From a virus: 36,138 bases of DNA. The stretch is taken from positions 1 to 36,138 of the IMG/VR virus record IMGVR_UViG_3300031951_000589; one strand, given 5' to 3'. Each line of letters starts with the position of its first letter. Position 1 is the stretch's first letter. The notes under the pieces are model-generated. The model did no database searches and was not told the origin of the DNA. It was given only the letters and a program-made list of their open reading frames with translations. Position numbers and translations under genes: made by a program. Shown here piece by piece: positions 3,931 to 35,813 of the stretch.

Positions 3931-3940
3931 TATTATACCA
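3931..3940 (-). promoter_or_regulatory. TGGTATAATA element, leaderless type
   Basis: Perfect copy of the ten-base element read on the minus strand, preceded by TTTA. The hexamer ends five bases (AAAGT) before the ATG at 3926, which places the expected transcription start at or next to the start codon. No convincing -35 box is seen upstream, where the sequence is the start of the intergenic gap and the 3' end of the preceding gene. Confidence 0.65.
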
Positions 3941-4775: not shown

Positions 4776-5204
4776 TTAGCACCCGCCTATTTCTAGCATC
4801 TCAACCGTAACTGCGTTCTTGACTACAAAGCTTCTTACTACTCCGTCTTCAGTAACATTAACTTTAATAGAACCGCTATTAGGGACTTGAACTGCGCTTA
4901 AATTAAACCTCCAGATACTCTTATCGTCAGCAAAAGGTTGAGTGCCGACAATGTTGAAGGCAGCAGCATCATCAATTGATTGAAAATCAACAGAAATAGC
5001 TAAAGCCGCAGCTTGCGATATATAACGCATAGGCATTTGTGGAAATGCTGGAGATTTCTCAGAATCTACCGCTGTACTGACATCTAAATCGATTAATTGT
5101 AAATAAAGAGTGTTTGGCTGACCTTCAGCCATATAAGCTTGGGCTGCATTTTGCCAAGAATTTACATTATTTACGTTCTTCAATACCTTTGCACTAAGTC
5201 TCAT
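4776..5204 (-). CDS. Small beta-rich virion-type protein of unknown function
   Basis: 142 residues, mostly predicted beta strand (NTLYLQLIDLD, AAALAISVDF, SIWRFNLSAVQVPNSG, SIKVNVTEDG), with no signal peptide or membrane segment. It begins at ATG 5204 just behind a TGGTATAAAG element, and its stop abuts the GTG of the connector candidate, so the two form one operon. Paired placement with a neck-type protein suggests a structural role in the head-tail joint, but no family is recognised with certainty. A GAGG sits 4-7 bases before the ATG and may act as ribosome binding site if transcription starts early enough. Confidence 0.55.
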   Translation of the reverse strand: MRLSAKVLKNVNNVNSWQNAAQAYMAEGQPNTLYLQLIDLDVSTAVDSEKSPAFPQMPMRYISQAAALAISVDFQSIDDAAAFNIVGTQPFADDKSIWRFNLSAVQVPNSGSIKVNVTEDGVVRSFVVKNAVTVEMLEIGGC

Positions 5205-5221: not shown

Positions 5222-5260
5222 TGGGTTTATAATAAAGATTGCGATTTTGGCTAGTTTTTG

Positions 5261-10237: not shown

Positions 10238-10274
10238 CTAATCTTTAAGGTAGATATCTTTAATTAAAGATTAG
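10238..10274 (+). promoter_or_regulatory. Leader hairpin upstream of the prohead protease gene
   Basis: Perfect 11-base inverted repeat CTAATCTTTAA / TTAAAGATTAG with a 15-base loop, ending 15 bases before ATG 10290. There is no T run, so it is not a terminator. It may affect ribosome access or mRNA stability. Confidence 0.45.
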
Positions 10275-13340: not shown

Positions 13341-13350
13341 TGGTATAATA
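13341..13350 (+). promoter_or_regulatory. TGGTATAATA element, leaderless type
   Basis: Perfect copy, preceded by TTTG. The hexamer ends six bases (AACTAC) before ATG 13356. The place where a -35 box would lie is occupied by the terminator hairpin, arguing that no -35 contact is needed. Confidence 0.7.
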
Positions 13351-13355
13351 ACTAC

Positions 13356-13781
13356 ATGATAAGAAAATGTACTTACACCGGAAGAGATGCAAAAGCTAAG
13401 GATTCTGTAATACCTAGAGACCTTCTAGGTGATGAAATTCATAATTGGGCAGCTTCATTGCCTAGTAATCCCGACTACTTACAAACCAAACAAAATCGAC
13501 TACCTACAGAGCTTGAGATGCAAGCTAATGAAATCTTTCATCTTTTAGAGCTAACTAAGCTTCGTGTCATATATTATGAACAGAAGCTTAAGTCTATTCA
13601 AGACGAAATCCTTAAAACTTATAAAGAGCCTAAAAAATCACCCATCCCTAAGGCAGAGAAAAAGAAGCAAGAGCAAATAGAAAAAGCTATTATCGAAAAA
13701 GAAGTAGTAGAATCTACTAACGAGAATATAAATGAGTTCTTTGAATCTAAACGTAAAATATGGGATGATGAAGATGAGTAG
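13356..13781 (+). CDS. Charged helical protein, unknown
   Basis: 141 residues from ATG 13356; a longer in-frame reading would start within the promoter and is rejected. The N-terminus MIRKCTYTGRDAKAKDSVIP has a Cys and basic residues. The middle is helical, and residues ~85-125 form a highly charged coiled coil rich in Lys and Glu. The stop overlaps the start of the next gene. There is no ribosome binding site, consistent with a leaderless message. No family is recognised; its place before the chaperonin and terminase suggests a late, head-related role. Confidence 0.5.
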   Translation: MIRKCTYTGRDAKAKDSVIPRDLLGDEIHNWAASLPSNPDYLQTKQNRLPTELEMQANEIFHLLELTKLRVIYYEQKLKSIQDEILKTYKEPKKSPIPKAEKKKQEQIEKAIIEKEVVESTNENINEFFESKRKIWDDEDE

Positions 13782-13974
13782 TTTTAAATGTAAAAAATGC
13801 GGGTGCGAGCCTGAGATACTTAGTAGTTTTGGTAAGTTTGGCAACAATCCATTGAAAATAGAAGATGATAATGACTATTGTGATACTTGCTTTGAACAAG
13901 TGTGCTTGAAATACGAAGGCAAGTATCCAGAGCCAAAGCAAAATCCGACAGAAACTTATGGTATAATAGAATAG
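13774..13974 (+). CDS. Small zinc-ribbon-like protein
   Basis: 66 residues from ATG 13774, overlapping the previous stop by eight bases. Two Cys pairs, CKKCGC near the N-terminus and CDTCFEQVC about 25 residues later, make a probable zinc-binding knuckle or ribbon. The C-terminus ends GIIE, and its last codons contain a TGGTATAATA element that drives the chaperonin gene. It has no signal peptide. It could bind nucleic acid or protein; the family is not identified. Confidence 0.55.
   Translation: MSSFKCKKCGCEPEILSSFGKFGNNPLKIEDDNDYCDTCFEQVCLKYEGKYPEPKQNPTETYGIIE
13959..13968 (+). promoter_or_regulatory. TGGTATAATA element inside the end of the upstream gene
   Basis: Perfect copy preceded by TTA, encoded within the Gly-Ile-Ile codons of the zinc-ribbon gene. 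It would give a leader of roughly 25 bases with AAAGGA before ATG 14000. Confidence 0.6.
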
Positions 13975-13999: not shown

Positions 14000-15769
14000 A
14001 TGAGCCGTAAAGTTAAATCCCCAGCCAAGATGTTTACTAGTGATGACAAGAAGTTACAAAAGATAATTGTAGAAACTATGGATGAAATTGCAGGAGTTGT
14101 AGGTAAATCTTTAGGTCCGGGCGGTCGGGTAATCATAATCGAAAGTGATTTACAAGGTATCCCAAACAAGAACACTAAAGACGGTGTTAGTATTTTCAGA
14201 GCCTTAGGTTCTCACGACCCATTTAAACATCTTATTATCGAGCAAACCCGTGATGCTGCTATTCGTACAGTTAACGAAGCTGGAGATGGTACGACAACCG
14301 CCACCGTTATTTCAGCAGCTCTAATTAAAAACCTTTTTGACTTTTGCAGTAAGAATAGACGCTATTCTCCTCAAAAGGTAGCACGTATTATCGCTAGAAC
14401 TTTAGATGAAACTCTAGTTCCATCTATCAGAAAGCAATCCATCAAGATTACAACTAAGAACCAAGACCTTCTAGAAAGAGTTGCTACCGTTTCAGTTAAC
14501 GGTGATAAGGATATGGCTAAAGCTGTAATTCAAGCCTTTGAAGAAGTAGGCTACGGAGCATCGTCTCACGTAACTATCCAAGAGCTTTCTGGTCCAAGCG
14601 GTCAATATGAAGTTAAACTTATCGAAGGTTTTCCAGTAGATAAAGGCTATGAAGAGAGTATTGGTAAGTTCCACCCTGCTTTTATTAATGACCAAGGTAA
14701 TCAAAGATGTTTACTTGATAAACCTTTATTTATCTTATTTGATGGTAATATTACCGATATGGTTCAAATTCAACCAGTACTAGAAAGTATTGGTGAAGAA
14801 TACGTAAGCGGTAAATCTGAGTTTAAAAACGTAGTTATTGTAGCTCATAATTTCTCAGACCAAGTTCTAACACAACTTGCTTTTAACTTTCCTAATCCTC
14901 AGACTATTAATATCGTTCCTTTAACAACTCCTCTTAGCCAAATCATTAATGGTCAGCTAGAATTCCTTATGGATATCTCAGCTTTTACTGGCGCTAAGAT
15001 TTTTGATATGAACAATTCTCTCCTAGATGCCTTGCCGGAAGATTTTGGTAAGAATATGGAAAAGATTGAAATCTATCGCTTCCGCACTACTATTGTAGGT
15101 GAGCCAGACCAATTGAATGTTGAAGACAGAGCTAGTCAGATTTCTACAAGAATGAATCAATCTGAATCTAAGATTGAAAAGATTCTTTTAGAAGAAAGAC
15201 TTGGTAAACTTACTAACGGTATTGCTCAACTTAAAATCTATGGCTCTTCTAACGCTGAACTAAAAGAGAAGGCTGATAGAGCTGAAGACGCTGTTTGTGC
15301 GGTAAGAGCTGCTATTAGTCACGGTTGTCTTCCGGGTGGATGTCGTGTATTGATTAATCTACTAATTGGACTATTGGCTGAAACTGAGAATAAAGAAATT
15401 ATGCAAGATGTACTTATCCCGTCTCTTGCGGCTCCTTTCTATAAGCTACTAGATAATGCTGGATATAACGTAGATGAGCAACAGGAAATTCTAGGCAAGC
15501 TCCTCGAAAATAAAGACTTGGTTTATGATGTAGAGAATGGAGTATTCGGAAAAGCCAAAGAGTTGGGTATTTTTGACGCTACCTTGGCTGTAGAGCAAGC
15601 GCTTAAAAACGCTGTATCAATTGCTTCAGTAATGGGTACTCTTGGTGGTATCGTAGCTTTCCCTAGAGATGGTCAGCTTGAACGCCAACATGCTTTAGAT
15701 GAAGAAAATTTTAGACAAACACTAGATAATGCAGAAAATATGCGTAATGAAGCGAATGAACGTTCGTGA
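14000..15769 (+). CDS. Phage GroEL-like chaperonin (Hsp60 family)
   Basis: 589 residues, divergent but clearly GroEL-like. The equatorial ATP site shows GKSLGPGGR (35-43), TKDGVS (59-64) and AGDGTTTATV (94-103; Asp96 matches GroEL Asp87). The second equatorial half has AELKEKADRAEDAVCAVRAA followed by HGCLPGG, and FDATLAVEQALKNAVSIASV near 530. The apical domain is poorly conserved, and the GGM-rich C-terminal tail is absent, replaced by a charged helix. Phage-encoded chaperonins fold capsid or other phage proteins, as known for Pseudomonas phage EL. It lies directly before terminase, behind a TGGTATAATA element and an AAAGGA site. A candidate GroES-like partner is at 24824-25129. Confidence 0.9.
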   Translation: MSRKVKSPAKMFTSDDKKLQKIIVETMDEIAGVVGKSLGPGGRVIIIESDLQGIPNKNTKDGVSIFRALGSHDPFKHLIIEQTRDAAIRTVNEAGDGTTTATVISAALIKNLFDFCSKNRRYSPQKVARIIARTLDETLVPSIRKQSIKITTKNQDLLERVATVSVNGDKDMAKAVIQAFEEVGYGASSHVTIQELSGPSGQYEVKLIEGFPVDKGYEESIGKFHPAFINDQGNQRCLLDKPLFILFDGNITDMVQIQPVLESIGEEYVSGKSEFKNVVIVAHNFSDQVLTQLAFNFPNPQTINIVPLTTPLSQIINGQLEFLMDISAFTGAKIFDMNNSLLDALPEDFGKNMEKIEIYRFRTTIVGEPDQLNVEDRASQISTRMNQSESKIEKILLEERLGKLTNGIAQLKIYGSSNAELKEKADRAEDAVCAVRAAISHGCLPGGCRVLINLLIGLLAETENKEIMQDVLIPSLAAPFYKLLDNAGYNVDEQQEILGKLLENKDLVYDVENGVFGKAKELGIFDATLAVEQALKNAVSIASVMGTLGGIVAFPRDGQLERQHALDEENFRQTLDNAENMRNEANERS

Positions 15770-17636: not shown

Positions 17637-17693
17637 TTGGCGCAAAAATCTTTAATAATTCAAGGTTTTTACGCAGAAAAAGCAATCTTTAAA

Positions 17694-17703
17694 TGGTATA
17701 ATA
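17694..17703 (+). promoter_or_regulatory. TGGTATAATA element before a virion gene
   Basis: Perfect copy preceded by TTTAAA, following the terminase stop by about 57 bases. The expected transcript has a short leader containing GGAG ten bases before ATG 17721. Confidence 0.65.
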
Positions 17704-17720
17704 CAATACTGGAGACGAAA

Positions 17721-18662
17721 ATGAGTAAAATGAATCTATTTTTAGCGGTGACGGCATACGAAGACGAAAATCCGACCAATAATCCATCCAAAAATATCTT
17801 TAAGTGGGTCAACGACCTCCAAGGCGCTTCTATTGAAGAACCTAGCGCCTCTACAGTTAAACTAGCTCCCGGTCAGGTTTTAAGCTTGTTCTCGGGTGAA
17901 GTAACTTTATCCGACGATGGTACTACGACCTATGATCTAAGTCTTAAATCGGGTACTGCTAATACATACAGCTTAAAGCATAATTCAGGAACCGCTCCTG
18001 CCTTTAGAACTCTTAGAAGCTTAGGTCAAAACGCTACATCTCAAATTACAGTAACAAAGAATGCTACCTTAGCAATTTTTACATCTTCCGGCGGAACACT
18101 ACTCAATCTAGCCTCCCTTGTAGTGGGCGACGAAGTTAGAATCGGTTCTCAATTTAACGTAGCTAATCAAGGCAAATTTAAGGTCTTGTCTAAAACAACT
18201 ACTTCGTTCACTGTAGAAAATCCATCCGTATCTGCTGAAGGTCCTGTGACCCTTGGAGCTGGCTTTGCTGACCAAGTTAGGGCTTATTCTTCAGCAGGTG
18301 TCCAGATCGGAGATGACGTAGCTATTGATGCTGGTTTTTCGGTTGTCTCTCAAGGTACTTACCAAATCACAGACGTTCAAGACAATAAGATTGAATTCTA
18401 TAGTTTAAGCCCACTTCCTGAAGAGCTGGCTATTTCTGAAAACCTCAGAATCTTTAATCAGTCTAAAAAATTCATTTATGTTGAATCCGACAAAAAGATT
18501 TCTATTAGTATCAATGGGACTAACTCAAACACTATTGAGCCTGTTATCCTAGGTCTTAAGCTTAAGTCAGGTTGTTTTATGCAAAATACAACTATGTCAT
18601 CGGCTGAAATAACAAATAATTCACAAGAAACGGCTACTGTAACGTTTCTAACGGCAGAATAA
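17721..18662 (+). CDS. Beta-rich virion protein (possible decoration or fibre-type)
   Basis: 313 residues from ATG 17721, chosen because GGAG and a promoter lie just upstream; a longer in-frame reading would run through both. The sequence is mostly beta with many Thr, Ser and Gly. There are two copies of a module built on VGDEVRIGSQFNVANQGKF and IGDDVAIDAGFSVVSQGTY, each followed by a strand and a Thr/Ser-rich turn, indicating tandem beta domains. The N-terminus is similar to a domain that could bind the head. Between terminase and portal, a head decoration or outer protein is likely, but this is inferred. Confidence 0.5.
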   Translation: MSKMNLFLAVTAYEDENPTNNPSKNIFKWVNDLQGASIEEPSASTVKLAPGQVLSLFSGEVTLSDDGTTTYDLSLKSGTANTYSLKHNSGTAPAFRTLRSLGQNATSQITVTKNATLAIFTSSGGTLLNLASLVVGDEVRIGSQFNVANQGKFKVLSKTTTSFTVENPSVSAEGPVTLGAGFADQVRAYSSAGVQIGDDVAIDAGFSVVSQGTYQITDVQDNKIEFYSLSPLPEELAISENLRIFNQSKKFIYVESDKKISISINGTNSNTIEPVILGLKLKSGCFMQNTTMSSAEITNNSQETATVTFLTAE

Positions 18663-21045: not shown

Positions 21046-21824
21046 TGAAAGGTCTTCCACTTAAAATTATCGATAAGATTGAGGAAATCATCGGTGCTCA
21101 GTTTGATGAAATCACTTTAGATTTCTTGGGCATTATACCGAAGCTTTCTAGAAATAAGAGGATAGTTTTTACCACCACTAGAAGTAATCTAACATCGTTA
21201 TTCCTACAGGCGCTAGGTCATAGGAAGCCCAATCAAGACGAGGAGGATACTCTTAAGGGATGTCTAAGAGTTGCAGCTAATTATATTGATGCTCTTAAAG
21301 AAAGAACTCAAGCTAGAGCCGTTCAAACAGCTAACGCATACGCTCAGGAAACTTTTGCCAATAACAAGCAAATAGCTCCGAGTAAAATTAGAAAAATTGT
21401 TGTTGAAGAGATGGGAAAGGCTCAGAACCATTTAAAGTTGATTGTTAATAGTGAGACTAATAAAGCTGTGAATACAGGAACCGCACTACAAATTCAAAAA
21501 GTTGCTGACGATGTTGGAGATAAAGACCCTGTTGTTTTCTTTCTTGTAACAAAAGATGATAAAACAGGTGATGAAGAATGGATTCTACATTTACTTCCAG
21601 ATAGAAAAACTCCGCGACTTTGGTACTTATCTGAGATTGGAGCTGGCTATCATAAGGTCGGAGACCCGAACCCTAAACTACCCGGACTACATCCAAATTG
21701 TCGTTGTAAGATAACTTACCTACCTAAATCTTTTGGCTTTGGTCCAGAGGGTAAAATCAAGTGGGTTGAGCTTGACCATGACGAAATCAAAGAACAAAGA
21801 AAAACTCACCCACTACCTCGTTAA
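21045..21824 (+). CDS. MuF-like phage head morphogenesis protein
   Basis: 259 residues. The C-terminus has PKLPGLHPNCRCKITYLP, the signature 'HPNCRC' end of the Mu gpF / SPP1 gp7 family, minor head proteins that bind near the portal and are packaged with DNA. The middle holds a helical segment (NAYAQETFANNKQIAPSKI), then KAQNHLKLIVNSETNKAVNT and DEEWILHLLPDRKTP, as in this family. ATG 21045 shares one base with the previous stop. Its stop overlaps, on the opposite strand, the stop of the M15 peptidase gene by four bases. Confidence 0.85.
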   Translation: MKGLPLKIIDKIEEIIGAQFDEITLDFLGIIPKLSRNKRIVFTTTRSNLTSLFLQALGHRKPNQDEEDTLKGCLRVAANYIDALKERTQARAVQTANAYAQETFANNKQIAPSKIRKIVVEEMGKAQNHLKLIVNSETNKAVNTGTALQIQKVADDVGDKDPVVFFLVTKDDKTGDEEWILHLLPDRKTPRLWYLSEIGAGYHKVGDPNPKLPGLHPNCRCKITYLPKSFGFGPEGKIKWVELDHDEIKEQRKTHPLPR

Positions 21825-22240
21825 GGCATAAACCAAATAGTTTTACCATTAGCCCAAGAACCGTAGGGTATAATTTGAAAATGAGCCCAACCCGGTGTTT
21901 TAGAATCATGTTCAAGCCAAAGACCTACTTCCAATAAAAACTTCTCGTTAGCTCTACACCACTTATCCAATTCACCATTTGGGTCAGCAATATCAATAGC
22001 TTGACCAAACAAATGCTTACTCTTCATTGGAATCAGTTTCTTATCAGTAATTCCCTTCCTAGCATAAATAGCCAAATGCTCCGCCATACTTCTATAAACA
22101 GAAGTTGGAGTCATCGGCTTACCGTATTTTTCTCTTACCTTATTAATTCTTTCAAGTACTATCGCTAGGTTAGCTGCGTGGTCTTTAGGAATATCTTCCA
22201 GCTTCTTACCCATCAAAATTTCTTTCATTGAAATTGCCAT
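21821..22240 (-). CDS. M15 family peptidoglycan peptidase (endolysin candidate)
   Basis: 139 residues from ATG 22240, chosen over an in-frame GTG six bases upstream because AGAGG lies five bases before it. The zinc-binding pattern of the VanY/M15 group is complete: His76 and Asp83 in SKHLFGQAIDIAD and His120 in GWAHFQ. These enzymes cleave L-Ala-D-Glu or D-Ala bonds in peptidoglycan and serve as phage endolysins. There is no signal peptide, so it would need a holin, none of which is seen in this window. It is the only minus-strand gene between 10.3 and 36 kb, lying between two plus-strand units. Confidence 0.85.
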   Translation of the reverse strand: MAISMKEILMGKKLEDIPKDHAANLAIVLERINKVREKYGKPMTPTSVYRSMAEHLAIYARKGITDKKLIPMKSKHLFGQAIDIADPNGELDKWCRANEKFLLEVGLWLEHDSKTPGWAHFQIIPYGSWANGKTIWFMP

Positions 22241-22274
22241 AAACACCTCTTTAGCTTAAAGATTATCCTTTTTA

Positions 22275-22284
22275 TGGTATAATA
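22275..22284 (+). promoter_or_regulatory. TGGTATAATA element, leaderless type
   Basis: Perfect copy preceded by TTTTTA. The hexamer ends six bases (AAGGAT) before ATG 22290. The AAGG between hexamer and ATG could be a ribosome binding site only if transcription began unusually early. Confidence 0.65.
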
Positions 22285-22289
22285 AGGAT

Positions 22290-23783
22290 ATGAAAGTAAC
22301 GATTAAAAATCCTAGTAAGGCTTATATTGATGCCGACCCGGTAGTTCTGGAAGGTATGAAGAAGGAATTTTCATATCGTAAAACTTCAGTTCAAATCCTA
22401 CTTCAGAAGCACGAGCATAAGCATTGGCTTAAAAATAGCGACCCTGATAGATGGGAGTATGAAAAAGCAGAGCTTCTAAGAGACCTTGATAAGAATCTAC
22501 TGTTTCAAGACAAGGGAGGCTACTGGGTTAGACCCGGACTATTGAGCTACCTTCCTTTTTCATTTACCTTAATAAACGAAATATCGTATCCTAAATTTAA
22601 ACCCATTCCTTGGGCAAAAATGCCAGAATTTGAACCCTATCCTTACCAATCATTGTCTATGGATAAAATGATGGAGGCTAGACACGCTTGTATCAGCCTA
22701 CCTACAGGATGTGGTAAATCCTTTATTACGCAGCTTATGGCTCGAAATACAGGCTTAGATACGGTTGTAGTAACTCCTAGTGAATCTATCTTTAATGAAC
22801 TTCTAAAAGGGTTTACTGAGCTTTTAGGTAAGAAATACGTAGGTGGATATGGCGATGGTAAGAAAGACCTAACTAAGAAAATAACAATCGCTATCAGTAA
22901 GTCACTAGCTAATCTTAAAGAAGGAACTCCAGCGTTTGATTTCTTTGCTTCTAAGCAGATGATGATTGTGGATGAATCCCATACCTTTGCTGCTGAAACT
23001 CTTGAGGAAGTCTGCCACGGTGTTCTAGCTGATATTCCTTACAGATTCTTCCTATCCGCTACCCAGACTCGTGGAGACGGTACTGAAAAGCTTTTGAACT
23101 CAATTATTGGTCCATGCGTATATGAGATGTCAATTGATGAAGCCATCTCTCAAGGCTACCTATGTCCACTTAATTTTACCATACTACAGACTTTTACACC
23201 GTCTAGTCTAATTAAGAAAGATTCTATTGAAAATAAGAGAGAGCATTTGCTCTACAATAAAGAAGTAGCTAAAACCGCTGCCTTAATTGCTAACTCCAAG
23301 TGGGAAAACAAACAAGAGTCTACTCTTATTCTAGTCGAAGAACTTCGTCAAATAAAACTTATTATAGACCTACTTAAGGTCCCGTATGGATATGTTCACT
23401 CAGGCTCAAAGAAAGACGCTGCCGTTTGGGGTCTAGAGCAAGTTGATTCGCAAGAACAGGTTGATAGGTTCAATAAGGGTGAAATCAGAGTCCTAATTGG
23501 AACTAGAGCTATTGCTACTGGAACTAACTTATACCCGACCCATAACACAATAAACTGCGTTGGTGGTAGTTCCGAGATTATTACCAAACAAGGTACTATG
23601 GGAAGGTCTACTAGAAAGCTAGAGATAAGTAAGTACAAGCATCTCCATAAGCCCAAGCCAGCTACTATGATTTATGATTTTGATATAACTAATAATCCTA
23701 AACTCAAGGCTCAGCTAAAGAAGCGAATTGAATGGTATAAAGAGGCAAACGGTACGATAGATACCTTTAATCTTATGGTATAA
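22290..23783 (+). CDS. UvsW-like SF2 helicase
   Basis: 497 residues. An N-terminal extension (~1-110) precedes the helicase core: EPYPYQSLSM (motif Q-like), PTGCGKS (138-144, Walker A), DESH (228-231, motif II), SATQTR (256-261, motif III), and in the second RecA-like lobe GTRAIATGTNL (motif V) and QGTMGRSTRK (motif VI). In T4, UvsW unwinds branched DNA and R-loops and shuts off early origins. The gene heads the unit that carries the sigma-like factor and the gp47-type nuclease. Its last residues, Leu-Met-Val, and the TAA stop are part of the promoter element for the following gene. Confidence 0.85.
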   Translation: MKVTIKNPSKAYIDADPVVLEGMKKEFSYRKTSVQILLQKHEHKHWLKNSDPDRWEYEKAELLRDLDKNLLFQDKGGYWVRPGLLSYLPFSFTLINEISYPKFKPIPWAKMPEFEPYPYQSLSMDKMMEARHACISLPTGCGKSFITQLMARNTGLDTVVVTPSESIFNELLKGFTELLGKKYVGGYGDGKKDLTKKITIAISKSLANLKEGTPAFDFFASKQMMIVDESHTFAAETLEEVCHGVLADIPYRFFLSATQTRGDGTEKLLNSIIGPCVYEMSIDEAISQGYLCPLNFTILQTFTPSSLIKKDSIENKREHLLYNKEVAKTAALIANSKWENKQESTLILVEELRQIKLIIDLLKVPYGYVHSGSKKDAAVWGLEQVDSQEQVDRFNKGEIRVLIGTRAIATGTNLYPTHNTINCVGGSSEIITKQGTMGRSTRKLEISKYKHLHKPKPATMIYDFDITNNPKLKAQLKKRIEWYKEANGTIDTFNLMV

Positions 23784-23785
23784 TA
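23776..23785 (+). promoter_or_regulatory. TGGTATAATA element overlapping the helicase stop, leaderless type
   Basis: Perfect copy preceded by CTTA. The TAA stop of the helicase (23781-23783) lies within TATAAT. The hexamer ends five bases (ATATC) before ATG 23790 of the sigma-like gene, so the gene for the candidate reader of the element is itself preceded by it. Confidence 0.65.
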
Positions 23786-23789
23786 TATC

Positions 23790-24827
23790 ATGGTTAATAA
23801 AAAAAGATTTACGGACAGAGAATTTCAAAAACTAGCTGCCCGTATTAACAAAACATTAATTGCAAACGAAGGTGTTGGCGGAGACCAGAAGAAACAAGTC
23901 GAAGCTGTAATGGACCTTGAGCGCTATTTTTTCAATGCTATCAAGCGTTATGCCAAGGCTGTTCAAGTCTATGCTTTATTTATTAGACATATTAATCACG
24001 AATTAGGTAATATATTAAACGCCAAACCCTTCTTTAGAGAAAGCCCTGCCGTTTTTAATAAATCCATATCTCCAGCCTTAAGAAGCAACAATCCTCGTAA
24101 ACTACTAGAATTTCACGGCAATTACAACTTAATTCATTTTATAGTTAATAATTGGGGTGGACCTCTACCCGACCACGTTCAATCTATATATGACAGATTC
24201 TTAAAAGCCAGAAGCCTCCTTATCGAAAACAATCTTCCCTTAGCCATCAATCGTGCTAAAATCTTTTACCGCAGTACTCCAGAAAGCCACCTTTTATTAA
24301 TCGACTTCATTGATATATGTATCCAAGGTTTAATTACTGGTATCGATAAATACGTTGGTGAATATACAACGGTTTGGCGTTCGGTCTGTATTGGTCGAAT
24401 GGTTGGTTTTATGATTGAGGAATATTCTAAGACCTTGATTAGGATGTATCCTACAGACAAGAAAATTCTTTACAGAATCAATTCCCTAAGGCATACTCTA
24501 AAGACAGAGGATATTAAAATCCTTACTAAAGCTCTTAATGAGAGCTTTCTTCAAGATGAAAAAGAAGGGAAAGCTATTCCTAAACTTCCTATCTTTGAAG
24601 ACTTTGTTGTTGAGATTTTAAATGGAGCCTCTCATCTTAGTGCTGATAGTACAATCGAAGATGTTGATGGTTCGGGTTCTGTGGGTATTTATGATATTAC
24701 AGCTAGTTCAGATGACATAGCTGAAGAGGTCGAAAACAGAAACGCTTGGGGCGGAGTTTTAAATGCTGCTAAACAGCTTAACTTACTAGAAACAAAGATT
24801 ATACGACTTAAGGGAGTAGATATATGA
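23790..24827 (+). CDS. Divergent phage sigma factor (T4 gp55-type late factor candidate)
   Basis: 345 residues. Residues ~145-190 (ENNLPLAINRAKIFYRSTPE, then HLLLIDFIDICIQGLITGID) align by eye with sigma70 regions 2.1-2.2, the core-polymerase-binding helices 'A..Y...DLIQEG..GL..AvdkF'. GEYTTVWRSVCIGRMVGFMI (190-209) matches regions 2.3-2.4, and YSKTLIRMYPTDKKILYRIN (212-231) matches region 3.0. An acidic linker (TIEDVDGSGSVGIYDIT, 288-304) precedes LNAAKQLNLLETKIIRLKGV (324-343), like the first helix of region 4.1, where the protein stops. Region 4.2, the -35-binding helix-turn-helix, is therefore absent. The Trp-Trp pair of region 2.3 is not conserved. Neighbours are the helicase and gp47-type nuclease; in T4, gene 55 also lies near 47 and 46. 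Confidence 0.7.
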   Translation: MVNKKRFTDREFQKLAARINKTLIANEGVGGDQKKQVEAVMDLERYFFNAIKRYAKAVQVYALFIRHINHELGNILNAKPFFRESPAVFNKSISPALRSNNPRKLLEFHGNYNLIHFIVNNWGGPLPDHVQSIYDRFLKARSLLIENNLPLAINRAKIFYRSTPESHLLLIDFIDICIQGLITGIDKYVGEYTTVWRSVCIGRMVGFMIEEYSKTLIRMYPTDKKILYRINSLRHTLKTEDIKILTKALNESFLQDEKEGKAIPKLPIFEDFVVEILNGASHLSADSTIEDVDGSGSVGIYDITASSDDIAEEVENRNAWGGVLNAAKQLNLLETKIIRLKGVDI

Positions 24828-25129
24828 AAAACAAAACACTTAACTTAAAAATTATGACAGAGCCTTATAAGGGTGAAAGAAAGATTGAGTCTTCGGTTAA
24901 ATCTGGGTTTGCTTCCGTTAAGCAGAAGAGTACTATCGTAGCCTTAAAAGTTCTATCTGACGCTTATATTGACGAGGGAAGGACTATTAAGGCTGGCTCC
25001 AAGGTTCATATCAATGAAGAAGTCCTGTATGCTAAATTTACAACTCAGCGCCCTTATGAATCGGCGGCTGTAGAGGGTCCTTTTGTATTTGTTGATTTTA
25101 ACGATGTAATGTTTGTGACGGAGGAATAG
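24824..25129 (+). CDS. Small beta protein, possible GroES-like co-chaperonin
   Basis: 101 residues; ATG overlaps the sigma-like stop by four bases. Predicted all-beta after a basic N-terminus. The segment KIESSVKSGFASV could be a mobile loop, IDEGRTIKAGSKVHI resembles the 'G..i..GD.V' turn of GroES, and FVFVDFNDVMFVTEE resembles the 'v..sDILAiv' C-terminal strand. Length fits GroES/gp31 (about 97-111). The similarity is weak and by eye only. A phage chaperonin at 14000-15769 makes a partner plausible, but it lies far away and among recombination and transcription genes, so it may be something else. Confidence 0.35.
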   Translation: MKNKTLNLKIMTEPYKGERKIESSVKSGFASVKQKSTIVALKVLSDAYIDEGRTIKAGSKVHINEEVLYAKFTTQRPYESAAVEGPFVFVDFNDVMFVTEE

Positions 25130-26100
25130 TGAAAATTCTTAGAGTCGGAGACCCCCACGTTACCGTTTCTAATATGAAAGAGTCTACAGCTCTGATTAGT
25201 TTTGTTATCGATAAGGCTAAAGAGTTTGATGTTGATTGTGTTGAGATTCTTGGTGATTTGTTTGATACTCACTCAGTAATCCGTTCGGAAGTCTTAGACT
25301 TTTGGGATATGGCTTTTAAAATTCTAGAGATGGAAGGAATTTCTACTAGGGTTATGATTGGTAATCATGACCAGATTGGAGATAAAGAACGTGAACAATC
25401 TCTCAATGCTTTAAATGTATTCTGCAATAAATATAAGTTTGTAAACATATTGAACGCTACTCAGGTAATAGACGGTATTATCTACATACCTCACACCAGC
25501 GACCCTGAATTATTCCTTGAGAGAGCTAAGAAGGGCGGCAAGCTACTGATAGCTCACCAGACCTTTATTGGAGCTGAGTACGAATCAGGATTCCCTGCCG
25601 AAGACGGTATAGATATTGATAGCGTTCCTCAGGAAGCTATTATCTCAGGTCACATCCATAAATCACAACAGATTGGTAAAGTATTCTACCCCGGTGCTCC
25701 ACGTTGGCTTAAATCAACTGATGCGGATACTGACAAGGGTATCTGGCTATTTGAGCACAATAAAGAGAATCCTGCTATTTACATTAAAGAATTTATCTCA
25801 ACTAAAGAAGTAGTTACACCTATTGTTAAGATAGTATTTAAAGAAGGCGAAGAAGAGCCTACCCTTCCAGATAATGCTAAGGTAGCTCTGGAGCTTATAG
25901 GTGAGTCGTCTTGGATTGCTAAGATGCGTAAGAAGTACAAGGGCAAGGCTTCAATCAGAGCCGTTCCAAGCGACCGTAAGGCTTCATCGGTAGATAAGAG
26001 CAAGCTCGTAGATATCGAGCAGTTCCTAGCTGGATACGTGAAGCCTAATGATAGTTTTGGCGTACAGGATGTGATTGAGTATATTAGAGGCGTATCATGA
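25129..26100 (+). CDS. SbcD/Mre11-type nuclease (T4 gp47-like)
   Basis: 323 residues, GTG start overlapping the previous TAG by one base, with GGAGG upstream. The calcineurin-like phosphoesterase motifs are in order: GDPH (Asp8, His10), ILGDLFDTHS (Asp43), IGNHDQ (Asn79, His80), IAHQTF and SGHIHKSQ. With the gp46-like ATPase it forms the nuclease complex that resects DNA ends for recombination-dependent replication. T4 gp47 has 339 residues, close to this length. Unlike T4, the partner gene is not next to it but about 3 kb downstream. Confidence 0.92.
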   Translation: MKILRVGDPHVTVSNMKESTALISFVIDKAKEFDVDCVEILGDLFDTHSVIRSEVLDFWDMAFKILEMEGISTRVMIGNHDQIGDKEREQSLNALNVFCNKYKFVNILNATQVIDGIIYIPHTSDPELFLERAKKGGKLLIAHQTFIGAEYESGFPAEDGIDIDSVPQEAIISGHIHKSQQIGKVFYPGAPRWLKSTDADTDKGIWLFEHNKENPAIYIKEFISTKEVVTPIVKIVFKEGEEEPTLPDNAKVALELIGESSWIAKMRKKYKGKASIRAVPSDRKASSVDKSKLVDIEQFLAGYVKPNDSFGVQDVIEYIRGVS

Positions 26101-27742: not shown

Positions 27743-27752
27743 TGGTATAATA
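27743..27752 (+). promoter_or_regulatory. TGGTATAATA element before the exported protease
   Basis: Perfect copy preceded by AACG. The transcript would have a leader of about 35 bases with GGAGG eight bases before ATG 27794, so this copy is not of the leaderless type. Confidence 0.6.
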
Positions 27753-27793
27753 AAATATACCTTTTTGAGGTGTACAACTACGGAGGACAAAGA

Positions 27794-28741
27794 ATGAAGA
27801 TTCTAGTATTGCTGATGGCTCTCTTTACATTCAGTGTAGGAGCTGCCGAGACCGTGACGTTTAATGAAGATAACACAGTTTCCCTTAAGGATGCTGTAAT
27901 GTCTGGAAGCGTCACACAAACAATTAACGAACTTGCTAAGAGAGAAAGTAACAGCGAACCTGTTATTTACTTGGTACTAGATACTCCGGGCGGAAGTGTT
28001 TTCGCTGGACTTAATCTTATCCACTATCTTAAAGGTTACAAAAAACCAGTTAAGACAGTAACTATCTTTGCTGCTTCTATGGGATTCCAGATTGTTAACG
28101 GAAACCCCGGAGAACGTCTTATCGTAGATACAGGTGTTCTAATGTCACACCCTATGTCTGGCGGTATTGGTGGAGAACTAGGCAACGGTCTAAGTCTTGA
28201 TAATCGTAACGGATATATCAAAGAAATCATCGATACTATGGATAAGCAAGCTGTAGCTCGTACTAAAGGTAAAGTAAGTCTTGCTGAATACCAAAAAGCC
28301 TATGATAATGAGCTTTGGACAACTGGTCAAAACGCTGTAGATAAAGGCTATGCAGATGCAGTAACTCAAGCTTCTTGTTCAGATGGACTTTCAGCTTCTG
28401 TTGAAACAATTGACGACCGTGAATTTATTGGCTTTAGTATGATGGGACCTCTTGCTCTTCAGATTAAATATGAAGTTTCAAAATGTCCACTACAAATGTC
28501 TATCCTACGATATCAAGTAGCTATTGTAAACGCTGCTACTGAAGAGCGCTTTGTTCTCAAGAACAGTGGATATGAGATTGCTGAAAAGAAATCTAGTTCT
28601 GAACGAGGAATGTATATCGGTCAGAATAAGTCAGAATCTGCTGAAATTGAAAAAACTATTGAAGCCAGCCTTCGATATAAAACCTTTCAGTTTTATTTAA
28701 AAAGAGATATGAATAGTGTTCGAGGAATTAACTGGTTTTAA
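27794..28741 (+). CDS. Exported ClpP-like serine protease
   Basis: 315 residues from ATG 27794 (GGAGG upstream). A signal peptide (MKILVLLMALFTFSVGA, cut before AET) precedes a ClpP/crotonase-fold peptidase: LVLDTPGGSV (61-69) matches the 'NSPGGSV' strand, Ser95 in FAASMGFQ is the nucleophile, and His119 in LMSHPMSGG is the general base, followed by KAYDNELWTTGQNAVDKGYA as in ClpP. The C-terminal ~110 residues are an extra domain with two Cys (KCPL and ASCSD). Cytoplasmic ClpP-like proteases are known prohead proteases, but the signal peptide places this one in the periplasm, more like NfeD/SppA-type enzymes. It ends at a strong terminator. Confidence 0.8.
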   Translation: MKILVLLMALFTFSVGAAETVTFNEDNTVSLKDAVMSGSVTQTINELAKRESNSEPVIYLVLDTPGGSVFAGLNLIHYLKGYKKPVKTVTIFAASMGFQIVNGNPGERLIVDTGVLMSHPMSGGIGGELGNGLSLDNRNGYIKEIIDTMDKQAVARTKGKVSLAEYQKAYDNELWTTGQNAVDKGYADAVTQASCSDGLSASVETIDDREFIGFSMMGPLALQIKYEVSKCPLQMSILRYQVAIVNAATEERFVLKNSGYEIAEKKSSSERGMYIGQNKSESAEIEKTIEASLRYKTFQFYLKRDMNSVRGINWF

Positions 28742-28779: not shown

Positions 28780-28787
28780 ATGTCTTG

Positions 28788-28797
28788 TGGTATAATA
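28788..28797 (+). promoter_or_regulatory. TGGTATAATA element immediately after a terminator
   Basis: Perfect copy preceded by CTTG. The -35 position falls in the terminator hairpin, as at 13341. A leader of about ten bases with GGAGG precedes ATG 28812. Confidence 0.7.
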
Positions 28798-28811
28798 TTG
28801 ATGGAGGTTCT

Positions 28812-29072
28812 ATGCTTATACATTTTAAATGCAATAATCCTGATTGTCCTAATGAGACAACTAAATTATTTAAATACAGTAAAGACGTATCTTCATGGCT
28901 AGATTGTGGTGAGTGTGGGGTGGGTAAATTAGAACGTCAACTATCAGCTCCATCCACCAAGAGTACTCAGATGATTGATAATGGCGCTCAGGCTCGTCGT
29001 GTAGAGGTCATGAGCGAAGTAGTACTTAAAGAATCTGAACGTCTAGCTAGACAGGAAGAAGAGAATGATTAA
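28812..29072 (+). CDS. FmdB-like zinc-ribbon protein
   Basis: 86 residues from ATG 28812; an in-frame upstream TTG lies within the promoter and is rejected. The first 46 residues form a four-Cys ribbon (FKCNNPDCPNE and LDCGECGVGKLERQLSAPS), matching FmdB-type regulators in Cys spacing and the 'L.R.lSaPs' end. The remainder is a charged helix (VVLKESERLARQEEEND). The small basic/acidic layout suggests a nucleic-acid or protein adaptor. The next gene, the gp46-like ATPase, starts eight bases before its stop, so they are coupled. Confidence 0.6.
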   Translation: MLIHFKCNNPDCPNETTKLFKYSKDVSSWLDCGECGVGKLERQLSAPSTKSTQMIDNGAQARRVEVMSEVVLKESERLARQEEEND

Positions 29073-31116
29073 ACTAATAAGTTTAAGTTTTGAAGGGATT
29101 GGAAGATTCACTAAGAAACAAACGGTAGACTTCTCAGACCGTGATAAACTTGTTCAGGTTGACGGTAAGAATGAAAATACCGGAGGCTCTTCAGGAGCTG
29201 GTAAATCTACCTTATTCCATTCATTAGACTACCTTCTTGGTCTAAATGATATCCCCACTACTGGGCTACAGTCTAGGAACGGCAAAGCCTCACTATGGGC
29301 TGAAGGCGTATTTGAAATTGATGACAAAAAAGTAACCGTTACTCGTTCTAAGAAAGACGGGCTTTCAATTGTATCTGAAGACGAATCCATTAGCGGAAAC
29401 GTCAAGCTTGCAGAAGAGCGCCTAGACCAACTGATAGGTGTACCTAAAAAACTATTTAAAAAGATGATTCATAAGAAGCAGAAAGAGGGTGGGTTTTTCC
29501 TTAACCTTACTGCTAAGGAATCGTTTGAGTTCCTAATTAAAGTCCTAGGTCTAGAGAACTGGACCGCTAAAATCGAAAAAATTGAAGAAGATATTAAATC
29601 TAAGCAAAAGCGCTTAGGTGAACTAAAAACAATCATTACAAATAAATACGATACACGCACTAGTCTACAGAGTATGTTAGAGCTTAAAAAGAAGCCTGAA
29701 GCTCCAGAATATACGGATGAGCAATACGAAACGCTAAGACAGAAAAAAGAGCTATTAGCTCCAGCTATCAAAGACCTTCGAGATACTCTAGAAGGCAAGA
29801 TGCGAGAAATACCTATACCTAGCGCAACTTCTGTGTACGTGGACGATTCTAATTTAAAATTAATTAGAGATAAGGTATTAGAAACTCAAAATAAGATAAA
29901 CAATGCTCAATACATGCATAAGACTAGATTAAATCTGTTAAGGTCTGAGATATCCTCAATCAAAGAATCTATATCTAAGTCAGAGTATGCTGAAAAAGAG
30001 CTACTTAATGTAGTCCAAAGAATTCAGAAGCTTAAAGAGCAGCAGAAACATATAGAATCAGAATCCTGCCCTACATGCTCTCAGAGCTGGAAAGGCAAGG
30101 ACGCTCAAGATAAAGTAAAACAAATTTCAGATGAGATTGGTATCTTAAGTGAAAAAGCTTGGGAGTGTAAACAATTATCCGATTCCAAGACTGGCTTAAT
30201 TCAAAAACATGAGACGGCAACTCAATCTCTTGTGTTAGAATCAGATTACAATCCAACTTATGAATTAGACCTAGAGCTTGACCAGTTTAGAAAAGAAGTG
30301 GCTGTAGAAGAAGGTAATATTGCCAGCGCCTTACTGTCAGCAGAAACTAAGACCAAGCTTGATAATGCTGAGTATGGAAATCAAGTTCAGAAGATTAGAA
30401 GCGAGTATGCAGATAAAATCAATACCGCTACTAATGAGTACAATAAAATAGAATCAGAAATGAACCTCATAGGTCAAGCTCTTCGTAGTTATAAGAATTC
30501 GCTACTAAATTACGAACTTGAAATGAAAGGTATTAAAGAAAAAATCAGAGAAGTTGACTTATCTTCGGTAGAGTTAGTTGAAGAAGAAATCAGGTTGGCT
30601 AAACAAGTTCTAGTCGCTGAAGAATCTAAGAAAGTGATTAAGGCATATACTATGCAGATTTTCCAAGAGTCGTTGGATTACATTGGAGAGCAAGCCTCTC
30701 AGATTCTATCTAACGTCCCTAATATGGCTAGTTCTACTATTTACTTTGAAAGTTGTAAAGAGACCAAATCAGGCTCTATTAAGGACGAGGTTAATCCAAT
30801 CATTAATATGGATGGAGAGAATGAGATTAGTATCAAAACGCTTTCTGGTGGCGAAAGAACTTCTATCGACCTAGCTGTAGATTTAGCTCTAATCGAGATG
30901 ATTGAAACTAAGGCTGGTAAGGGCGCAGACTTCTTTATTCTGGATGAGCCTTTTGACGGGCTCGATGCCGTAAACAAAACTGAATGTTTAGATATTTTAC
31001 AAAATTTAGATACTAATAAGAAAATTATTATCGTTGACCATAGTGCAGAATTAAAAGCATTAGTTCATGATATAATTATGGTCGTTCGTCAAGGTGAAGA
31101 TAGTTTTGTGGTATAA
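29065..31116 (+). CDS. SbcC/Rad50-type ATPase (T4 gp46-like)
   Basis: 683 residues, longer than T4 gp46 (560). Walker A is GSSGAGKST (41-49), followed by two long coiled-coil arms meeting at a zinc hook CPTC (335-338). The C-terminal half has the ABC signature LSGGERTS (593-600) and Walker B FFILDEP (623-629) with FDGLD. With the gp47-like nuclease it processes DNA ends to create single-stranded DNA for recombination and replication. The final Val-Val and the stop codon lie inside the TGGTATAATA element that serves the next gene. Confidence 0.93.
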   Translation: MIKLISLSFEGIGRFTKKQTVDFSDRDKLVQVDGKNENTGGSSGAGKSTLFHSLDYLLGLNDIPTTGLQSRNGKASLWAEGVFEIDDKKVTVTRSKKDGLSIVSEDESISGNVKLAEERLDQLIGVPKKLFKKMIHKKQKEGGFFLNLTAKESFEFLIKVLGLENWTAKIEKIEEDIKSKQKRLGELKTIITNKYDTRTSLQSMLELKKKPEAPEYTDEQYETLRQKKELLAPAIKDLRDTLEGKMREIPIPSATSVYVDDSNLKLIRDKVLETQNKINNAQYMHKTRLNLLRSEISSIKESISKSEYAEKELLNVVQRIQKLKEQQKHIESESCPTCSQSWKGKDAQDKVKQISDEIGILSEKAWECKQLSDSKTGLIQKHETATQSLVLESDYNPTYELDLELDQFRKEVAVEEGNIASALLSAETKTKLDNAEYGNQVQKIRSEYADKINTATNEYNKIESEMNLIGQALRSYKNSLLNYELEMKGIKEKIREVDLSSVELVEEEIRLAKQVLVAEESKKVIKAYTMQIFQESLDYIGEQASQILSNVPNMASSTIYFESCKETKSGSIKDEVNPIINMDGENEISIKTLSGGERTSIDLAVDLALIEMIETKAGKGADFFILDEPFDGLDAVNKTECLDILQNLDTNKKIIIVDHSAELKALVHDIIMVVRQGEDSFVV

Positions 31117-31118
31117 TA
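31109..31118 (+). promoter_or_regulatory. TGGTATAATA element overlapping the gp46-like stop
   Basis: Perfect copy preceded by TTTG. The TAA stop (31114-31116) lies within TATAAT. The transcript would have a leader of about 12 bases with AGGAG before ATG 31135. Confidence 0.65.
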
Positions 31119-31134
31119 AATCATAGGAGAAACC

Positions 31135-31491
31135 ATGAGCGTTAAAGATACTTTAGATTCTGATATTATCAATTTTTTTGAACATATTGATAATCAGAAT
31201 GTCAATGATAGGAGGCAAACCCTTCGTCAGCTCATGGATAAATATATCCATTTGACTAAAGCTGAATTGTTGATGGATAAGCATGATTTAGAGGTTATTG
31301 TCAGTAACGCAAAAACCCTTATGGCTCAGAGTGCTTTTCCAGTAAGTCTAGGTAATTCTAAAAGGAGAGTCCATGAAAATGAACAAGTTGCACTATGTCT
31401 AATTGAGAGTACAGTAAGTCATCTAAATAAAAAAGATTGTTTAAAACGGCTACCTAAATTTGATTATAGGAGCGATACTCTGGAGGAGTAA
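31135..31491 (+). CDS. Helical protein, unknown
   Basis: 118 residues with AGGAG before the ATG. Almost entirely predicted helix (DIINFFEHIDNQNVNDRRQT, KAELLMDKHDLEVIVSNAK) with a central KRRVHENEQVALCLIESTV. There is no signal peptide or metal motif apart from scattered Cys. It has its own TGGTATAATA element and is followed directly by the next gene with an adjacent stop/start. No family is recognised; genes between the recombination nuclease and ribonucleotide reductase are usually DNA-metabolism accessories. Confidence 0.55.
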   Translation: MSVKDTLDSDIINFFEHIDNQNVNDRRQTLRQLMDKYIHLTKAELLMDKHDLEVIVSNAKTLMAQSAFPVSLGNSKRRVHENEQVALCLIESTVSHLNKKDCLKRLPKFDYRSDTLEE

Positions 31492-32428: not shown

Positions 32429-33388
32429 ATGAGCATGATGTCCTCTAGAGCTACGTATAAGCCTTTTGTCTATGAACAAGCTTATAAGTACTGGGAATCG
32501 CAACAACAAGCTCACTGGCTTCATACGGAAATTAGTATGGCTGGTGATATAAGTGACTTTAAAACAAACTTAACAGAATCAGAAAAACATGTAATCGGAC
32601 ACATTCTTAAGGGATTTACTCAATCCGAAATCTTTATTGGAGATTACTGGAGTAATAAAGTAGGGAAATGGTTTAAGCATCCTGAGATTCAGATGATGGC
32701 TGCTACCTTCTCTTCCTTCGAGTCCATTCACGCTGTAAGCTACGCTTATTTGAACGATAGCTTGGGATTGGATGACTATGCCGCATTTATGCACGACCCT
32801 AGCACTAAAGCCAAAATTGACCGTCTAGTATCCGCTAAAGGTAAGTCCAAGGAAGATATAGCTAAATCACTTGCTATCTTTTCTGGATTTAATGAAGGCG
32901 TAAACCTGTTCAGCTCATTTGCTATTCTCATGAACTTTCAGAGATTCAACAAGATGAAAGGCTTAGGTCAAATTATTGCCTTTAGTATTAGGGACGAATC
33001 CCTACATTCTGAAGCTGGGTGCTGGCTGTTCCGTACATTTATTGAAGAAAATCCAGATATCTGGACTGATGAGCTAAAGGCAGATATTTACGAAGCTGCC
33101 AGAGTTACAGTACAGCTTGAGGATGAATTTATTGATAAAGCCTTTGAACTTGGTGATATGGAGGGTCTATCTAAAGATGACCTTAAAAACTATATTAGAT
33201 TCAGAGCTAATACAAAACTTCAAGACTTAGGTCTTAAGACTAACTGGAAATCTGTTAAAAAAGAATCTATTGAAAATATGATGTGGTTTGACATCCTCTC
33301 CAACGGTGTTGAAATGCAAGATTTTTTTGCCGGTCGTGTAAGTTCGTATTCTAAAGGCACTATAGATTGGAGTAAAATGTATGAGTAA
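32429..33388 (+). CDS. nrdB: Ribonucleotide reductase class I small subunit
   Basis: 319 residues with GAGGT before the ATG. The diiron site is complete: Glu67 in TQSEIF (where E. coli NrdB has Asp84), Glu98 and His101 in FESIHAVSY with the radical Tyr105 four residues after the His, Glu156 in FNEGVN, and Glu190 and His193 in RDESLHSE. It supplies the tyrosyl radical to NrdA for making deoxynucleotides. The length is like NrdF-type subunits. The last eight bases overlap the start of an inserted GIY-YIG endonuclease, but the C-terminus that docks to NrdA (IDWSKMYE) appears intact. Confidence 0.94.
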   Translation: MSMMSSRATYKPFVYEQAYKYWESQQQAHWLHTEISMAGDISDFKTNLTESEKHVIGHILKGFTQSEIFIGDYWSNKVGKWFKHPEIQMMAATFSSFESIHAVSYAYLNDSLGLDDYAAFMHDPSTKAKIDRLVSAKGKSKEDIAKSLAIFSGFNEGVNLFSSFAILMNFQRFNKMKGLGQIIAFSIRDESLHSEAGCWLFRTFIEENPDIWTDELKADIYEAARVTVQLEDEFIDKAFELGDMEGLSKDDLKNYIRFRANTKLQDLGLKTNWKSVKKESIENMMWFDILSNGVEMQDFFAGRVSSYSKGTIDWSKMYE

Positions 33389-34109
33389 ATTAATCATATA
33401 TAAGATAACTAACCTAATTAACAATAAGACATATGTAGGTCAAACCATCAGAGGATTAGATAAAAGAATAAAACAATATAAAAGCAACTTAGGCGGAGGT
33501 CAGTATGCTTTAAAAAATGCTTTTAATAAATACGGTTTTGATAATTTTTTATTTGAAGAATTATTTATATGTTTTGATAAACATGATTTAAATTATTTTG
33601 AAAAATATTTTATAAATAGTCTTGATAGTTTATATCCTAATGGATATAATTTAACTACTGGCGGTGATTCTAATTTTAATTTTACAGAACAAACTATTGC
33701 TAAAATGAGTAAAGCTAAAAAAGGTAAACCAACTTGGAATAAAGGTAAGAAAGGAAGTATACCTTGGAATAAAGGCAAAAAGGGTTTTATAACTCAGTCA
33801 CAAGAATCTAATCTAAAAAGAAGTAGGTTTGGAGCTGAAAATCATTTTTACAACAAAAAACATTCTTTAAAGACGATACAAAAAATATCGCTTAAAAAGA
33901 AAGGCTCTATACCTCATAATCTTAATACAAATAAAATTTGTAAAGTTAAAGGTAGTATTTCTTGTATTTATGAAGATATAAGAGATTTATCTAAGGAAGG
34001 GTTTAATTCGTCTTGTATATTGCGCTGCTGTCGTAATGAAAGAAAAAGTCATTTAGGGTTTAATTTTCAGTTTTATAAGGAGTCTTATGTTACAGAAATT
34101 GCAAGATAG
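33381..34109 (+). CDS. GIY-YIG homing endonuclease with NUMOD3 motifs
   Basis: 242 residues. The N-terminal nuclease domain begins LIIYKITNLINNKTYVGQT (GIY-YIG motif as IYK...TYVGQT), with the conserved Arg in LDKRIKQY and Glu in YFEKYFINS. The DNA-binding part contains two tandem NUMOD3-type copies (GKPTWNKGKKG, SIPWNKGKKG) and a C-terminal NUMOD1-like HTH (SCIYEDIRDLSKEGFNSS). The gene is far more AT-rich than its neighbours: 33541-33660 has 18 G/C in 120 bases. It is inserted between nrdB and nrdA, overlapping both by 8 and 23 bases and leaving each intact. T4 also carries a free-standing homing endonuclease, MobE, between its nrd genes. Confidence 0.92.
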   Translation: MSKLIIYKITNLINNKTYVGQTIRGLDKRIKQYKSNLGGGQYALKNAFNKYGFDNFLFEELFICFDKHDLNYFEKYFINSLDSLYPNGYNLTTGGDSNFNFTEQTIAKMSKAKKGKPTWNKGKKGSIPWNKGKKGFITQSQESNLKRSRFGAENHFYNKKHSLKTIQKISLKKKGSIPHNLNTNKICKVKGSISCIYEDIRDLSKEGFNSSCILRCCRNERKSHLGFNFQFYKESYVTEIAR

Positions 34110-35803: not shown

Positions 35804-35813
35804 TGGTATAATA
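35804..35813 (+). promoter_or_regulatory. TGGTATAATA element after nrdA
   Basis: Perfect copy preceded by AATG, eight bases after the nrdA stop. The transcript would have a short leader with GAGGTG before ATG 35829. Confidence 0.65.

Follow-up and report, generated by a model that had tools for sequence, protein, structure and literature searches.

A stretch of virus DNA of 36,138 nucleotides (IMG/VR record IMGVR_UViG_3300031951_000589, positions 1 to 36,138; its whole length is called the window here) encodes a sigma factor that, on profile alignment, keeps region 2, region 3-like helices, an acidic 3.2 linker and a stub of region 4.1, and is without region 4.2. We consider it likely that this sigma, expressed with the middle genes, directs the host RNA polymerase to late promoters made of a -10-only AATCTT element, and that several of the resulting mRNAs are leaderless. 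Feature coordinates are given in Table 1.

The open reading frame (ORF) at 23790-24827 (plus strand) is intact, begins with ATG and encodes 345 amino acids (aa); its stop codon overlaps the next start (ATGA at 24824). Its product is a real sigma70-superfamily protein, a distant relative of bacterial sigma factors, as had been proposed in a preliminary description made from the sequence alone. Searched singly, the protein had no match in Pfam and weak PHROG sigma matches (E, 0.03 to 0.2; residues 130 to 188); its identity is firm because relatives (Mx1 and the family profile) add to these weak matches. Homologues were found at about 40 IMG/VR loci and in Myxococcus phage Mx1, and none was confirmed in bacterial genomes. 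The Mx1 protein (WNM70309.1, annotated "putative RNA polymerase sigma factor") is a true orthologue with 33% identity (tblastn E, 6e-42), the same length class, the same ending and the same neighbours (Mx1 order: helicase, sigma, small gene, SbcD, small gene, TerS, TerL); it matched phrog_351 (sigma) at E values of 3.6e-7 to 6.6e-10 and PF04542 at 9e-4, the latter below the gathering cut-off. In its open-access text, the Mx1 genome announcement (PMC10720576) is silent on the phage sigma, its promoters and the missing region 4.

Region 2 homology and a sigma fold were both found. A PDB search with the family profile returned RpoD/SigA chains (Escherichia coli RpoD; E, 1.5e-5) over region 2 (residues 136 to 191), with a second, weak stretch (residues 265 to 340) covering the 3.2 linker and region 4.1; a cyanobacterial SigA match to the 35-sequence profile spanned residues 139 to 341, reaching region 4.1, and hhalign of the family against E. 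coli RpoD gave an E value of 2e-4. The RpoD/SigA profile matches finish at or just past the DK(F/Y) motif of region 2.2. Compared with housekeeping sigma70/SigA, regions 2, the 3.2 linker and the start of 4.1 align, whereas region 4.2 is missing and region 2.3-2.4 has diverged; by alignment, region 2.1-2.2 is the best-conserved, core-binding part of the phage sigma. With an AlphaFold2 model (pLDDT, 80), all 50 Foldseek PDB matches listed were sigma chains of RNA polymerase structures (best E, 2.3e-4), at TM-scores (0.24 to 0.40) that are low, as expected since the domain arrangement is flexible. A BFVD structure search found a phage "SigBFG" protein (31% identical; E, 5e-18).

The end inside region 4.1, short of the 4.2 helix-turn-helix, had also been read from the single sequence and is common to the family. 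In every one of the 37 homologues whose 3' end is intact (35 of which entered the alignment), down to Mx1 at 33% identity, the protein stops at one place, which rules out a frameshift or a truncated assembly behind the short C terminus. The shared C terminus reads LKGVxL or a close variant, with the stop 2 residues past the motif aligned to REAKVLRMRFG in region 4.1 of RpoD (the window protein ends in LETKIIRLKGVDI); region 4 with the -35-binding helix-turn-helix of sigma70 was not found in the window family. The LKGV codons (AAA GGA GTN) double as the Shine-Dalgarno sequence of the gene downstream, and part of the LKGV conservation may be an RNA-level constraint. A protein-level constraint is likely too, because two loci (L022 and L023) have a separate ribosome-binding site for the next gene, yet keep LKGIK. 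T4 gp55 is not known to have a 4.1-like end. The absent region 4 does not exclude sigma identity, because known phage sigmas (phiEco32 gp36) are also without it.

Twelve relatives of 149 to 177 kb were compared, Mx1 being complete and the others IMG/VR contigs. Each carried a single sigma gene, and none of the 12 encoded an RNA polymerase beta subunit or a second Sigma70_r2 protein. Region 4 was not found over the cut-off anywhere in these genomes, which speaks against its being encoded on a separate gene; some relatives had region-4-like matches below the cut-off in small ORFs (lowest E, 1e-4), and these were not at conserved positions. A bacterial-type beta clamp over the cut-off was likewise absent from the 12 genomes, with a single sub-cut-off match in G010. 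The gene at 24824-25129 was considered as a gp33-like coactivator and rejected for its GroES/gp31-like fold (AlphaFold2 pLDDT, 86; best 21 Foldseek matches all Cpn10/GroES/gp31). As modelled, the gene is context and does not encode a transcription coactivator; neither Pfam nor PHROGs picked up this conserved co-chaperonin. With the phage's own GroEL (14000-15769), it makes up a full chaperonin pair.

A single-piece element, [C/T]AATCTT(T/A)A (motif A), is family-wide. It was first spotted by eye upstream of Mx1 structural genes (as CAATCTT), which is why the weight rests on the tests that leave out Mx1 or use held-out genomes. Unlabelled upstream k-mer enrichment found AATCTT de novo in most of 8 IMG/VR genomes plus Mx1, and AATCTT near gene starts was enriched in all 8 first-analysed IMG/VR genomes and in Mx1 (observed versus expected: G002, 17 versus 2.4; G010, 16 versus 4.9; G005, 16 versus 2.5). 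The same method gave no near-start AATCTT enrichment in T4 and SPO1 segments. The T4 late promoter is TATAAATA, which was recovered in T4 as a control (12 versus 0.65 expected); upstream of genes in window-family phages it was not consistently enriched, with at most 3 near starts. The window alone holds 7 [C/T]AATCTTTA against 2.6 expected, a modest excess, 5 of them well placed.

Motif A lies upstream of 65/264 structural-class orthologues versus 4/152 of the replication/metabolism class (P = 3.5e-10), and without Mx1 of 50/228 versus 4/128 (P = 4e-7). These per-gene values count orthologues of related genomes as if independent, and they depend on start codons assigned by a simple ORF caller and on class labels carried over from Mx1, in part by position. 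A family-level test, free of the orthologue dependence, gives only P = 0.017. Permuted and reverse-complement versions of the motif were null for late-gene bias. Three held-out genomes, fetched afterwards, showed both the enrichment (P = 6e-9, 5e-11 and 1e-3) and the late bias (18/80 versus 2/41; P = 0.018). Genes with recurrent motif A (7 to 8 of 9 to 10 genomes) are those for the prohead protease, baseplate, hyp_7617, hyp_23137 and hyp_139197. Overall the motif precedes only about one-quarter of late-class genes, many late genes lying inside operons.

Most motif A sites are 15 to 50 nt upstream of the start, with a separate ribosome-binding site further down. The AATCTT-to-ATG distance also has a sharp peak, 20/197 sites lying at exactly 6 nt and none at 3, 4, 5 or 7 (departure from a uniform spread, binomial P = 5e-8), and at this spacing AATCTT ranks first among 60 permutations (18; next, 6). 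In Mx1, late upstream regions with CAATCTT at this distance include those at record positions 75276, 121392 and 36550. At the 6-nt sites motif A looks like the -10 element of leaderless mRNAs, with the ATG at +1. In three clades the predicted +1, 12 nt downstream of the first A of AATCTT, is enriched for A. No -35 signal or upstream element was seen at motif A sites, consistent with the earlier expectation, drawn from the missing helix-turn-helix, of promoters with a -10 element only. Separately, TTGAC..TAnnnn precedes 11/45 early-region genes of Mx1 (OR576727.2, ~81-120 kb) versus 2/195 genes elsewhere; the pattern shared by the early promoters is longer than -35/-10, TTGAC...GGATCT..CTAGTATGGATCT (e.g., L045:16510, 16792 and 17637), which suggests that their spacer holds a further conserved element, GGATC.

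In the scheme that we favour, the sigma gene would be transcribed along with the middle genes, its promoter being of the TGnTATAAT type (motif B, TGGTATAATA in the window) and read by the host holoenzyme, or at least not by the phage sigma, and the sigma mRNA itself would usually be leaderless as well. The sigma would bind the host RNA polymerase core mainly via region 2 (conserved 2.1-2.2), its diverged region 2.3-2.4 would read [C/T]AATCTT(T/A)A at -12 to -7 without -35 contacts, and transcription would start about 6 nt downstream of AATCTT, several late mRNAs having ATG at +1; the virus-particle genes would thereby be switched on. Three parts of the scheme we infer: that the sigma reads AATCTT (as the sole specificity factor found in all these phages, alongside the sole motif found in common), the order of events in time, and independence from a coactivator. 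AATCTT could instead be read by another phage factor with the host RNA polymerase. A broader proposal, that widespread region-4-less, region-3-containing sigmas alone, without a clamp or flap coactivator, drive AATCTT late transcription, with the sigma and some late genes leaderless, is tentative and falls somewhat short of probable.

The preliminary description had linked the sigma to motif B, leaving AATCTT to something else. The TGGTATAATA sites are real, with 10 exact copies in the window against 0.15 expected, and most IMG/VR genomes gave TGTGGTATAAT or TGTGATATA on k-mer enrichment. Such a reading would suit the strong over-representation, an element ahead of the sigma gene that could serve autoregulation, the lack of any -35 seen at motif B sites, and several sites that depart from a strict housekeeping promoter in having a base other than T at position -7. 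Yet motif B is absent from Mx1, which carries the sigma; it differs by clade (TGTGGTATAAT versus TGTGATATA), whereas AATCTT does not drift; and it precedes the genes for sigma (7/10), GroEL (7/10) and helicase (6/10) with no structural-gene preference, whereas AATCTT tracks structural genes. Motif B looks like an extended -10 type promoter element: TGTGnTATAAT matches the TRTGn extended -10 that textbooks give for the housekeeping sigma, and the phage region 2.3-2.4 has diverged from that of RpoD. We judge motif B an improbable target of the phage sigma. At the sigma gene, TG[G/A]TA[T/A] occurs within 70 nt of the start in 25/33 loci, and motif B is 5 to 7 nt from the ATG in 19/33; the sigma mRNA is probably leaderless or near-leaderless, from motif B.

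Alternatively, flap binding or the -35 function might fall to a separate phage protein, on the model of T4 gp33 (with gp45); both of these activate late transcription in T4 (PMC7892883). With only a 4.1 stub, the sigma could leave the beta flap unoccupied, and the very weak region-4-like matches in small ORFs of some relatives could be read this way; these are not conserved in place, however, nothing exceeds the cut-off in 12 genomes, no -35 or upstream element was seen, and the coupled downstream gene is GroES-like, all of which makes an assisted sigma unlikely, if less so than the motif B reading. That the truncated protein mainly occupies core and shuts off host transcription, with another factor serving AATCTT, would fit the best-matched core-binding region 2.1-2.2, the missing region 4 and the diverged 2.3-2.4. 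Conservation nevertheless extends through the 3.2 linker and the 4.1 stub, the sigma co-occurs exactly with a family-wide -10-like motif, and no other sigma or polymerase was found, and we regard an anti-host factor as very improbable. Least probable of all is that AATCTT is a non-promoter mark, such as a translation signal or processing site: the motif is near start codons, sometimes 6 nt away, but most sites lie farther upstream and are followed by separate ribosome-binding sites, the 6-nt sites leave no room for a normal one, and neither the strong late-gene bias nor the A enriched at +1 suits such a mark.

Table 1. Sigma gene, its neighbours and candidate promoter elements (motifs A and B) in the window
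Feature	Position	Strand	Evidence
Motif B upstream of 2745-3926	3931..3940	-	
Motif A CAATCTTTA, putative late promoter of 4776-5204 (Mx1 hyp_23137 orthologue, structural block)	5233..5241	-	
Motif A TAATCTTTA upstream of prohead protease-like gene 10290-12170	10239..10247	+	
Motif A TAATCTTTA facing minus-strand capsid operon, ~190 bp before 10081	10265..10273	-	
Motif B TGGTATAATA; TATAAT 6 nt before ATG at 13356	13341..13350	+	
Motif B upstream of phage GroEL 14000-15769	13959..13968	+	
Motif A CAATCTTTA, then motif B directly, before gene starting 17721	17683..17691	+	
Motif B upstream of gene starting 17721	17694..17703	+	
Motif A TAATCTTTA upstream of endolysin-like gene 21821-22246 (endolysin PHROG match)	22257..22265	-	
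Motif B TGGTATAATA, helicase gene 22290; TATAAT 6 nt before ATG	22275..22284	+	
Helicase, conserved upstream neighbour of sigma	22290..23783	+	
Motif A-like TAATCTT directly upstream of sigma-gene motif B	23768..23774	+	
Motif B TGGTATAATA, 4 nt before sigma ATG (5 nt after TATAAT)	23776..23785	+	
Region-4-less sigma factor, 345 aa	23790..24827	+	Homologue searches, profiles, AlphaFold2/Foldseek
Sigma region 2, ~residues 136-197	24195..24380	+	RpoD/SigA profile matches
Region 4.1-like C-terminal stub, ~residues 310-345, ending LETKIIRLKGVDI then stop	24717..24824	+	Profiles, homologue endings
Shine-Dalgarno AAGGGAGT of next gene, within last sigma codons (L-K-G-V)	24810..24817	+	
GroES/gp31-like co-chaperonin, translationally coupled to sigma	24824..25129	+	AlphaFold2 + Foldseek
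SbcD/gp47-like nuclease subunit, conserved neighbour of sigma	25129..26100	+	
Motif B upstream of ClpP-like gene 27770-28741	27743..27752	+	
Motif B upstream of ORF 28785-29072 (likely true start ATG ~28812)	28788..28797	+	
Motif B upstream of 31135-31491	31109..31118	+	
Motif B upstream of 35829	35804..35813	+	

By analogy, the nearest functional precedent for the window sigma is phiEco32 gp36, reported as a middle protein without region-4 homology whose promoters have a single element, tAATGTAtA, no -35 and a start 6 to 8 bp downstream of the element; its authors tie the single element to the missing region 4 (PMC8948821). That element resembles the [C/T]AATCTT(T/A)A of the window family, in which the same arrangement (one element without -35, start 6 to 8 bp downstream) appears as a sequence pattern. 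Gp36 differs in being 214 aa long and annotated as ECF type, against about 345 aa, region 3 and a 4.1 stub in the window family, carried by phages of 149 to 177 kb, and hhalign of the family against the single gp36 sequence detected no kinship (E, 0.63). The preliminary description's "new type of late sigma" is too strong unqualified, because gp36 has already been reported as a sigma without region-4 homology that reads a single element (PMC8948821). The late role that it likened to T4 gp55 is supported as a prediction from analogy: gp55 is likewise of region-2 type, is without region 4, uses -10-only late promoters and acts as a late-gene switch on the host core (PMC7892883, PMC2988020), though it has 185 aa and is activated by gp33 and gp45 (PMC7892883). 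Against the single gp55 sequence, hhalign aligned 40 columns in register over region 2.2 (E, 0.03), which does not demonstrate clear kinship. Salmonella phage 7-11 gp47, also a late sigma with the host core, is of opposite design, with region 4 retained and a bipartite promoter, GTAAtg-(16)-aCTA, as its target (PMC8948821).

If the favoured scheme is true, T4 gp55 and phiEco32 gp36 would be joined by a third sigma that drives late transcription without region 4, from a family that keeps regions which both of those lack and that belongs to a phage group represented in many IMG/VR metagenome contigs. Both the promoter element and the start site are concrete and open to testing in Mx1, which can be cultivated and whose host is a model bacterium. 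Leaderless mRNAs in these phages may point to a sigma switch coupled to a change in translation initiation.

Two plus-strand stretches of the window, 17683-17703 (CAATCTTTAAATGGTATAATA) and 23768-23785 (TAATCTTATGGTATAATA), resemble composite double promoters in which motif A abuts motif B; at the latter, the motif A-like TAATCTT makes autoregulation of the sigma gene possible. The TTG start listed for 17637-18662 (plus strand) is probably wrong, the promoter and Shine-Dalgarno sequence favouring ATG at 17721; this gene, the Mx1 hyp_7617 orthologue, lies between TerL and portal. A minus-strand gene (2745-3926) encodes an S-adenosylmethionine lyase family domain (PF23780; E, 1.4e-7, above the cut-off), possibly a counter-defence enzyme against methylation-based host systems. 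A free-standing GIY-YIG/NUMOD3 homing endonuclease (33381-34109, plus strand) sits between two ribonucleotide reductase genes. The N terminus of the ClpP-like protein (27770-28741, plus strand) resembles a signal peptide, so the protein is possibly exported and not a head protease, and the product of 10290-12170 (plus strand) has a prohead protease-like N terminus fused to a C-terminal DUF6321 domain (E, 1e-15).
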